Assembly: GCA_016184115.1 (NCBI GenBank)
Contig: JACPDH010000030.1
Span: 1 to 41,306, forward strand
Origin: Acidobacteriota bacterium
GTDB lineage: Bacteria > Acidobacteriota > Thermoanaerobaculia > Gp7-AA8
DNA: 41,306 nucleotides
Direction of reading: 5' to 3'
In this document: positions 36,787 through 38,582 of the stretch, piece by piece
Numbering within the stretch: the stretch's first letter is position 1
Layout of the letters: each line of letters begins with the position of its first letter
Notes under the pieces: generated by a model
Databases searched by the model: none
What the model was told of the DNA's origin: nothing
The model's input: only the letters and a program-made list of their open reading frames with translations
Translations under genes and position numbers: made by a program

Positions 36787-36938
36787 GAATTCCTCCTGGT
36801 TCGAATCATTGGGGATTTCGTCAGCGCAAAGTTCTAGCACGGAAGTGTCACCGGAACGATAAACGCGCCAGATGTCTCGAGGTTCCAAACAACGTGTGAA
36901 CAACTGTGGCAGAGCTGGTTCGGTTTACACAAATGCAC

Positions 36939-36972
36939 GCCCGGCCACGCGCCCGCAGGGCTGTGGCCGGGC
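36939..36972. repeat. Hairpin in the gap upstream of tldD
   Basis: GCCCGGCCAC (36939-36948) and its exact complement GTGGCCGGGC (36963-36972) enclose a 14-bp loop, in the 250-bp gap between the tldD start and the end of the DUF3037 gene. With no T-run, it may be a terminator for the upstream minus-strand genes or a repeat. Confidence 0.4.
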
Positions 36973-37035
36973 AAGAAGGAACCGCTGACGAACTTGCGGG
37001 CCTCACAAAGCAACGCAGTGAATCCGGCGCGGCCG

Positions 37036-37434
37036 TCAGTCCGAGCCGACATGCGCTACGAACCGCTCGAACAGGCAGTCGAGGGCCTGCCTTGGATCGT
37101 GATGGAGCCCGGAATGGACCTCGGACGTCTGGATGATCGTGCTACGAGGAGCGACGAGCCAATGGAACCGCGCGCGCTGCGGAAGGTCGCCGATGTCGCC
37201 TGCTCCGCTGCCGCCGGCGCAGATTTTCGGAATTGCCGACAGGTGACTTTCGACGAAGTCGGTATCGATCGCAGGCGCGAGCGCCCGCAGGCGGGCGCAG
37301 TCGAGCTCGACGCGCGCATCGAGGAATCCAAGCGTGGGACAGAAGAGGATCACGCCGGCGTTGAGGAGCTCGCCTCGCTCGACCCGCGGGACAACGCGGA
37401 CGACCGCGTAATCAAACACGTGGCGATCGTGCAC
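37036..37434 (-). CDS. DUF3037 protein, overlapping the HipA-like kinase gene
   Basis: A 132-residue protein that fits DUF3037: it opens with FDYAVVRVVPRVERGELLNAGVILFCP, followed by LDARVELDCARLRAL, and ends in a helix (RQALDCLFERFVAH). The GTG start at 37434 has GGAGGA 8 bp upstream; a second GTG at 37419 would overlap the kinase stop by 8 bp and also fits. The gene begins inside the kinase gene, so translation is coupled. DUF3037 has no established function. As far as I know it is often found next to HipA-like kinase genes, which suggests a two-protein unit. There is no signal peptide or membrane segment. Confidence 0.83.
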   Translation of the reverse strand: MHDRHVFDYAVVRVVPRVERGELLNAGVILFCPTLGFLDARVELDCARLRALAPAIDTDFVESHLSAIPKICAGGSGAGDIGDLPQRARFHWLVAPRSTIIQTSEVHSGLHHDPRQALDCLFERFVAHVGSD

Positions 37435-38200
37435 GGGCGGCGTCCTCCATCCACTCCCTGGGTGATTCGAGTCGCTTCGTCAGGTAGTCGCGGTACGCCG
37501 CGCGATGCTCGTCCGGGCCGGCAAACCGCGGCTCCTCGACGAGCCACGAGTCAGGGATCATACCGACGACTCGCGCGACCGCTTCCGGCGTCAGCATCGC
37601 CGTGAGCTCTGCGTCGACTCCTGGCAGCTCGGTCGCCCAGCGGAGCAGAACATGGTCGCCGATCTGTCGGAACGGGAGGCGGCTCCGGTTTGCCGCGTCG
37701 TCCCAGTTGTGGTGAAAGATCAAGCTCGCTCCATGGTCGATCATCCAGAGCTTGCGGTGCCAGACGAGGAGGTTCGTGTTCTTCACCGTGCGATCGACGT
37801 TCGTGACGAGGGCGTCGAACCAGACGATCGCCGACGCGAGACGAGGGTTGATGGCACTCTTCGCATCGATGAGCGGATCGAATGTAATCGAGCCGGGAAG
37901 GTAGTCGAGCGCCAGATTGAGCCCGTTGCTCTTTCGGAGAAGATCCTGGATCTCTGGATCGCGCTCGGTCATCGCCATCCGCGGGTCGAAATCGACGAAG
38001 ACGATCTCGGGCACCGGAAGGCCGAGAATCCGCGCGATCTCGCCGGAGACGAGCTCCGCGATCAGCGCCTTCACCCCCTGGCCAGCGCCTCGGAACTTCA
38101 AAACGTACGTTCCGCTGTCGTCGCCGGCAACGATCGCAGGGAGCGAGCCTCCCTCGCGCAGCGGCGTGACATACTCCGTGGCGGTAATTGTGCGGATCAT
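37412..38200 (-). CDS. HipA-like kinase domain protein
   Basis: A 262-residue protein with the HipA kinase fold but without the N-terminal HipA subdomain. Visible kinase residues are K35 in TYVLKF (ATP lysine), the catalytic loop NVDRTVKNTN with D136 and N141, and D155 in WMIDHG as the metal-binding aspartate. All catalytic positions are present, so it should phosphorylate a substrate. HipA of E. coli phosphorylates glutamyl-tRNA synthetase and is blocked by HipB; there is no HipB-like helix-turn-helix gene here. Instead a DUF3037 gene overlaps the 3' end by 23 bp. The target and the role of the pair are unknown. Confidence 0.85.
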   Translation of the reverse strand: MIRTITATEYVTPLREGGSLPAIVAGDDSGTYVLKFRGAGQGVKALIAELVSGEIARILGLPVPEIVFVDFDPRMAMTERDPEIQDLLRKSNGLNLALDYLPGSITFDPLIDAKSAINPRLASAIVWFDALVTNVDRTVKNTNLLVWHRKLWMIDHGASLIFHHNWDDAANRSRLPFRQIGDHVLLRWATELPGVDAELTAMLTPEAVARVVGMIPDSWLVEEPRFAGPDEHRAAYRDYLTKRLESPREWMEDAARARSPRV

Positions 38201-38582
38201 GGCGTTGGCTGGCCCCCCCGCGTGCGGGAAAGTCGTCTATCGGGTCCCGATTTTCACTTCGCGGCGACCTCATTTGCGGATTCGGCCTGGTCGGGTCGCT
38301 TCTCGTTCCGGCCGGTGCACACCGGGCGGCGGGAGAATTCTACCCTTCCGCAGCTCTCTGAACGGCGATGCGATTTGGCGAGTCATCATTCGGGCGTGTC
38401 GTTCGGCCCTCGTGTTCCGTCCGTGAACTGGGCGAAAATGAACCCGTTTCACGGACGGGACACGAACTGTGACACTTTTCCCCCCGTGCGCCGCCTCACT
38501 TCCGGCTGTGCGCAGTACACGAGTGCGTCGCCCTTCGGATCTGATTGAATGGCGCGGGAACGACAACAACTACGAGGAACAC
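38201..38582. other. Divergent intergenic region between the HipA-like kinase and pepF genes
   Basis: No gene is supported. It contains copy 2 of the dispersed hairpin repeat (38409-38466). A TAGAAT hexamer on the minus strand (38337-38342) is a possible -10 for the kinase/DUF3037 operon, but its -35 is poor. The pepF gene has a ribosome-binding site (GAGGA) just before its ATG; I do not see its promoter. Confidence 0.5.
38409..38466. repeat. Dispersed hairpin repeat, copy 2
   Basis: Arms 38410-38427 (TCGTGTTCCGTCCGTGAA) and 38448-38465 pair over 18 bp with one G-T wobble. It matches the reverse complement of copy 1 (33698-33755) through both arms and the first loop bases (TGGGCG), and has the same overall length. 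The differences between copies are mostly changes on both sides of the stem that keep pairing. Confidence 0.85.

Follow-up and report, generated by a model that had tools for sequence, protein, structure and literature searches.

Two published descriptions come closest to the gene pair considered here. In retron-Sda1, according to the available part of PMC12548924, a kinase/DUF3037 pair is able on its own to protect against phage Bas51; deletion of the kinase abolishes defence whereas deletion of the DUF3037 gene is toxic, and therefore the kinase is the effector there. The second is DS-6, which consists of a HipA-related kinase and a DUF3037+DUF1829 protein and has been renamed HipAD, a name that PMC13092281 credits to Brenes and Laub 2025. 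As the accessible portion of PMC13092281 describes, a catalytic mutant of DS-6 loses defence, and AlphaFold3 predictions give ipTM values of 0.76-0.79 for the kinase with its partner and of 0.67 for the partner with DNA. In the literature that we found on the pair, no partner made of DUF3037 only is described, and the neighbourhood data of PMC12548924, a source used here in part, may hold such loci.

A pair of this kind lies near one end of the stretch of DNA analysed here as a whole (the window, 41,306 nucleotides of an Acidobacteriota bacterium, contig JACPDH010000030.1). Its features are the following:

37412 to 38200, minus strand: HipA_2-family kinase gene, 262 aa, ATG start, presumed toxin/effector
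37036 to 37434, minus strand: DUF3037 gene, 132 aa, GTG start, single domain, presumed kinase inhibitor/antitoxin
37412 to 37434, minus strand: overlap of the kinase and DUF3037 reading frames, 23 bp
37443 to 37448, minus strand: GGAGGA, Shine-Dalgarno-like site for DUF3037 within the kinase gene, 8 nt before the GTG
37793 to 37795, minus strand: codon of kinase Asp136, invariant in the short class (80/80 aligned kinases)
36903 to 38535, no strand assigned: block unlike the congeneric genome G001, homology breaking at 36902 and 38536

The first-pass annotation had read these genes, from the letters alone, as a HipA-like kinase overlapping a DUF3037 gene without HipB, and profile searches confirm it. 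The kinase belongs to the Pfam family PF20613 HipA_2 (E 3.2e-19) and, over residues 1-165, to the PADLOC family PDC-M66A (E 2.4e-23). Its partner matches PF11236 (E 5.3e-43) over residues 9-126 of 132, ending 6 residues past the domain, and PDC-M66B (E 1.1e-11) at profile positions 3-131 of 281 only; phrog_3162 and phrog_5137 of PHROGs also match the proteins of the pair. No HipB-like gene stands beside the pair, which is flanked by a TldD/PmbA peptidase gene and an M3 peptidase gene, and PF11236 is the only Pfam match of the DUF3037 protein. The suggestion of a toxin-antitoxin or defence system with DUF3037 as inhibitor agrees with the published relatives, as far as the available parts of PMC12548924 and PMC13092281 describe them. 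It does not stand as a claim of something unknown: the pair, also called HipAD or DS-6, is named by PADLOC (PDC-M66) and in both of those papers, so an unknown kind of system is ruled out. The kind of system is already known, and the short class is a consistent variant of it in which the C-terminal region of the partner is missing. The window copy belongs to a distinct "short" class, whose DUF3037 protein lacks the region of ~150 aa with which published and long-class partners continue at the C terminus. By analogy with these relatives, the window probably encodes a short-class HipAD-type module, in which a kinase toxin would be held by a translation-coupled DUF3037 inhibitor devoid of the DNA-binding half.

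A 56-nt palindrome (38410-38465), with 23-nt arms and a DNA fold z of -5.3, lies ahead of the kinase in the divergent promoter region. It is one member of a dispersed family, of which about seven other sites in the genome hold similar copies. This genome has eight matches to Y1 transposases (REP-type), and near those loci the palindrome was not found save for one weak half-site. Rfam and tRNA scans were empty.

How tightly are the two genes linked? Relatives were collected by a pattern scan of genome contigs that used DUF3037 similarity alone, and the best 80 of at least 553 confirmed relatives were kept, a set that leans to the short class. In all 80 of these best loci, a kinase gene is found directly upstream on the same strand. 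The distance matrices of the two proteins correlate with an r of 0.63, against a maximum of 0.16 for shuffled pairings, a value to which shared descent also contributes. Chance is excluded because of the profile scores and because this adjacency is conserved in loci that were picked by DUF3037 alone. Among 396 genomes of the same phylum, 41 have the short kinase, and precisely these 41 have the short DUF3037. None of the 41 holds an intact short kinase without DUF3037. The opposite arrangement, a broken kinase with an intact DUF3037 gene, was seen in L102, where the frame is broken, and in G146, two cases being too few for antitoxin asymmetry. One divergent lone kinase (E 3e-54) without DUF3037 was found in G409, and this argues against the reading of a toxin held by its inhibitor.

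The frames overlap in 79 of 81 loci, and the commonest length, exactly 23 bp, is seen in 48 of the 81. Within the kinase gene, 70/81 loci have a Shine-Dalgarno-like site, compared with 46.2 ± 3.3 expected when synonymous codons were resampled from each kinase's own usage, start codons having been set regardless of the ribosome site. The conserved Glu-Glu-Ala motif of the protein thus does not suffice to explain how often the Shine-Dalgarno site is kept, and the translational coupling first proposed from the overlap in the window gains support both from the conservation of that overlap and from the selection on this site.

That the kinase keeps its catalytic residues was likewise confirmed, since eight residues of catalytic type (K35, N134, D136, R137, N141, N143, D155 and G157) are invariant in 80/80 aligned kinases. 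We take the invariant residues, K35, D136, N141 and D155 among them, to be the equivalents of the HipA catalytic residues, Asp136 presumably corresponding to the catalytic Asp309 of HipA. In-frame TGA codons in five kinases drew attention as a candidate anomaly and were dismissed as the natural ends of those genes. PDB sequence searches gave no match for either the kinase or the DUF3037 protein. The AlphaFold2 model of the kinase (pLDDT 91.7) finds its nearest folds in CtkA (Z 16.0), PI4K-II (Z ~14), CotH (Z 12.7), HipT (Z 11.9) and HipA (Z 11.4). The HipA chain 3dnt aligns over its own residues 139-435 only, to residues 10-249 of the model; such a start, together with the 262-aa length of the kinase, supports the absence of the HipA N-terminal subdomain.

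The AlphaFold2 model of the DUF3037 protein (pLDDT 91.9) has no confident match in the PDB, the best hits being a Foldseek E of 1.9 and a VIA Z of 3.5, by which a new fold is not thereby proven; its best BFVD match has an E of 6.8e-4. Across 81 aligned short DUF3037 proteins, the polar residues R20, E22, N25, S98, Q102 and H107 are invariant. Ser98 could then be a phosphorylation site, and DUF3037 both substrate and effector, phosphorylated by the kinase and doing the work in that form. The constant company of the two proteins agrees with such a role as much as the invariance of Ser98 does. However, this serine is kept in only 8/15 long DUF3037 sequences, and the long relative of retron-Sda1, as the available part of PMC12548924 has it, becomes toxic when DUF3037 is deleted and defenceless when the kinase is, so that we find an effector role of DUF3037 very improbable.

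In the phylum sample, DUF3037 matches split into two groups separated by a gap: 41 score at least 121.9 bits and 50 no more than 87.0 bits (counted by eye). Short-class proteins carry 0-28 aa behind the domain in 80 relatives. Long-class open frames, inspected at 20 loci, are mostly ~270-310 aa with at least 145 aa behind the domain, the frame of L144 being only 160 aa, and the short-class kinase profile detects a HipA-like kinase upstream in 17 of the 20. PDC-M66B is matched more fully by long-class partners, those of a Klebsiella phage as well as those of Acidobacteriota (positions 6-271 of 281 in one case). Long-class tails run ~150 aa, and Pfam names no DUF1829 in five long partners scanned. 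The two classes may coexist, as in G013 of the same family, which has one short and two long DUF3037 loci (L013/L025 and L012/L024). Where both are present, in 18 genomes, it is the short pair that moves and the long pair that is resident. Mean identity there is 68% for short against 74% for long kinases, and 64% against 70% for DUF3037; the short kinase is the more conserved in only 34 of 153 pairs of these Acidobacteriota genomes. The idea of the short class as a slow-evolving housekeeping form opposed to a defensive long class is ruled out, the short pair being slightly less conserved and changing location. For the same reasons, the short class is better described as accessory, with a life like that of a toxin-antitoxin system.

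One Acidobacteriota family (f21; L134-L149, L228-L245) is peculiar in its long class. There the kinase carries Asn for the catalytic Asp, within the motif NxNGRQ, in 29 of 30 distinct long-class loci with a motif found; L144 has Asp, no motif was found in L145, and kinases without DUF3037 (L219, L222 and L226) keep Asp. By its sequence, this long-class pair is apparently a resident pseudokinase with DUF3037. It lies between genes for a phage-type terminase large subunit and a phage portal protein (L234:4671-11883, equivalents in L228-L245), near purE/purK in many genomes, and is syntenic in 16/18 compared; in G276 and G312 the long pair is next to purE/purK, and neither a terminase nor a portal gene was matched. 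The region looks like a long-kept phage-derived block.

The short pair behaves differently from this resident block: it moves between chromosomal sites, as a mobile accessory element does. In family f21, 20 short loci occupy at least eight contexts. Among 17 genomes of the same family as the window, the pair is intact in nine and absent or a remnant in eight. The congener G001, whose flanks are 87.4% and 85.6% identical to those of the window, has a spermidine-synthase-like gene where the pair would be, and therefore the intergenic slot between TldD and peptidase M3 accepts unrelated inserts. The gene in question (L208:3864-5945) encodes a ~694-aa membrane-type protein with a spermidine-synthase domain. 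Another genome of the family, G016, retains of the pair just the first ~60 kinase residues, fused in frame to the C-terminal two thirds of DUF3037 (L011:1486-1935; L011/L023), the remnant of a deletion inside the pair. Such a fusion, and the loss or decay in 8/17 genomes, is what one might expect if a two-gene insert, selfish or in decay, had no function now in the genome of the window. Both window genes are nevertheless intact, with all conserved residues and the conserved Shine-Dalgarno site, and this explanation is to our mind hardly credible.

Beyond the phylum, the short kinase is chromosomal and spread over at least nine phylum-level groups. On a quick tree, whose root and long branches are unsure, it groups imperfectly by phylum, with 15 label changes against a mean of 46.8 after shuffling. 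The short DUF3037 has no match in 50,697 phage records, and no DUF3037 relatives were found in the viral contigs scanned; it is present in 6 of 72,556 plasmid records, among them one Bacteroides sugar-gene region and one Streptomyces biosynthetic region. Such a distribution is unusual for a defence module and weighs against the toxin and inhibitor reading, as does the neighbourhood of the pair, which has no clear enrichment of defence genes. In the window, PADLOC at 1e-5 gives no defence match among nine proteins (a subset of its genes, picked by size). Next to the relatives, no recurrent defence gene was found in 120 of 155 picked flank ORFs, the longest and shortest having been left out: no PADLOC family occurs in more than three and no Pfam family in more than five, single PADLOC matches including SoFic, SduA and mad3. 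Within these scanned sets a defence island is rejected, and the first-pass annotation's check on distance to such islands gave no clear link.

A solitary pair among housekeeping genes, clustered by phylum label and not found in the phage or viral collections searched, could also be a regulatory kinase with a dedicated adaptor, DUF3037 presenting a substrate or a signal and some cell process being controlled in a way neither toxic nor defensive. The many invariant polar residues of DUF3037 are consistent with this. The patchy presence and the frequent changes of context are less so, and in the 18 genomes holding both classes the conservation of the short pair does not exceed that of the long; with the toxicity of a published long relative without DUF3037, as given in the part of PMC12548924 available, we judge a regulatory kinase unlikely.

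The toxin and inhibitor reading is built on several observations: the families to which the proteins belong, the order and overlap of the genes, the conservation of catalytic residues, the co-occurrence and mobility of the pair, and the absence of a C-terminal region from the partner. Toxicity without DUF3037, inhibition and a defence that depends on the kinase are taken over from long-form relatives. The short form would thus act as the long form does, with a target, a trigger and a loss of autoregulation that we infer. In this module, the small HipA-like Ser/Thr kinase would, when unbound, halt growth by phosphorylating some target in the host, and the one-domain DUF3037 protein would bind and silence the kinase. 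DUF3037 would be translated, through the overlap and the internal Shine-Dalgarno site, by ribosomes finishing the kinase message, so that synthesis of the kinase would always bring synthesis of the inhibitor with it. When a phage infects or some other stress sets in, the kinase would be released, leading to growth arrest or abortive infection. Lacking a C-terminal region on the antitoxin, the module can probably not use that protein to repress its promoter, and its balance may rest on translational coupling.

A broader proposal, possible but doubtful, is that the short class is a widespread kinase/inhibitor module devoid of antitoxin transcriptional control, in which the single DUF3037 domain is the sole neutraliser and the selected internal Shine-Dalgarno site sets dosage, perhaps acting in soil and environmental bacteria as a switch for stress or growth, unlike the long class with its phage defence carried by prophages. 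Should the short DUF3037 suffice to neutralise the kinase, it would be the inhibitor domain and the C-terminal region an optional DNA-binding add-on. As a minimal form, the short class is useful for telling which domain of the HipAD partner neutralises the kinase; being far from the tested E. coli examples and spanning many phyla, it also bears on the reach of the published function.

Compared with known systems, the window shares with HipAD/DS-6/PDC-M66 a HipA-like kinase gene followed by a DUF3037 gene on one strand, without HipB, and both its proteins match PDC-M66. It differs in the partner, which is DUF3037 alone, whereas DS-6B, in the accessible portion of its description, joins DUF3037 to DUF1829 with predicted DNA binding. 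The retron-Sda1 pair has the same gene types and is described, in the part of the source available, as a stand-alone defence pair whose kinase is toxic without DUF3037; that pair lies beside a retron RT and its DUF3037 C-terminal region resembles a retron DNA-binding protein, neither of which the window has. HipBA shares the kinase fold and the catalytic motif (HipA chains, Z 10-11), but the window lacks HipB and the HipA N-terminal subdomain. As in HipBST, a separate small partner accompanies a small kinase that lacks the N-terminal subdomain (HipT, Z 11.9), although in the window this partner is DUF3037, not identified as HipS, its gene is downstream and HipB is missing. The closest solved fold, CtkA of Helicobacter pylori (Z 16.0, 211 residues aligned, 14% identity), belongs to a family other than that of the window kinase, and we know of no DUF3037 partner for it.
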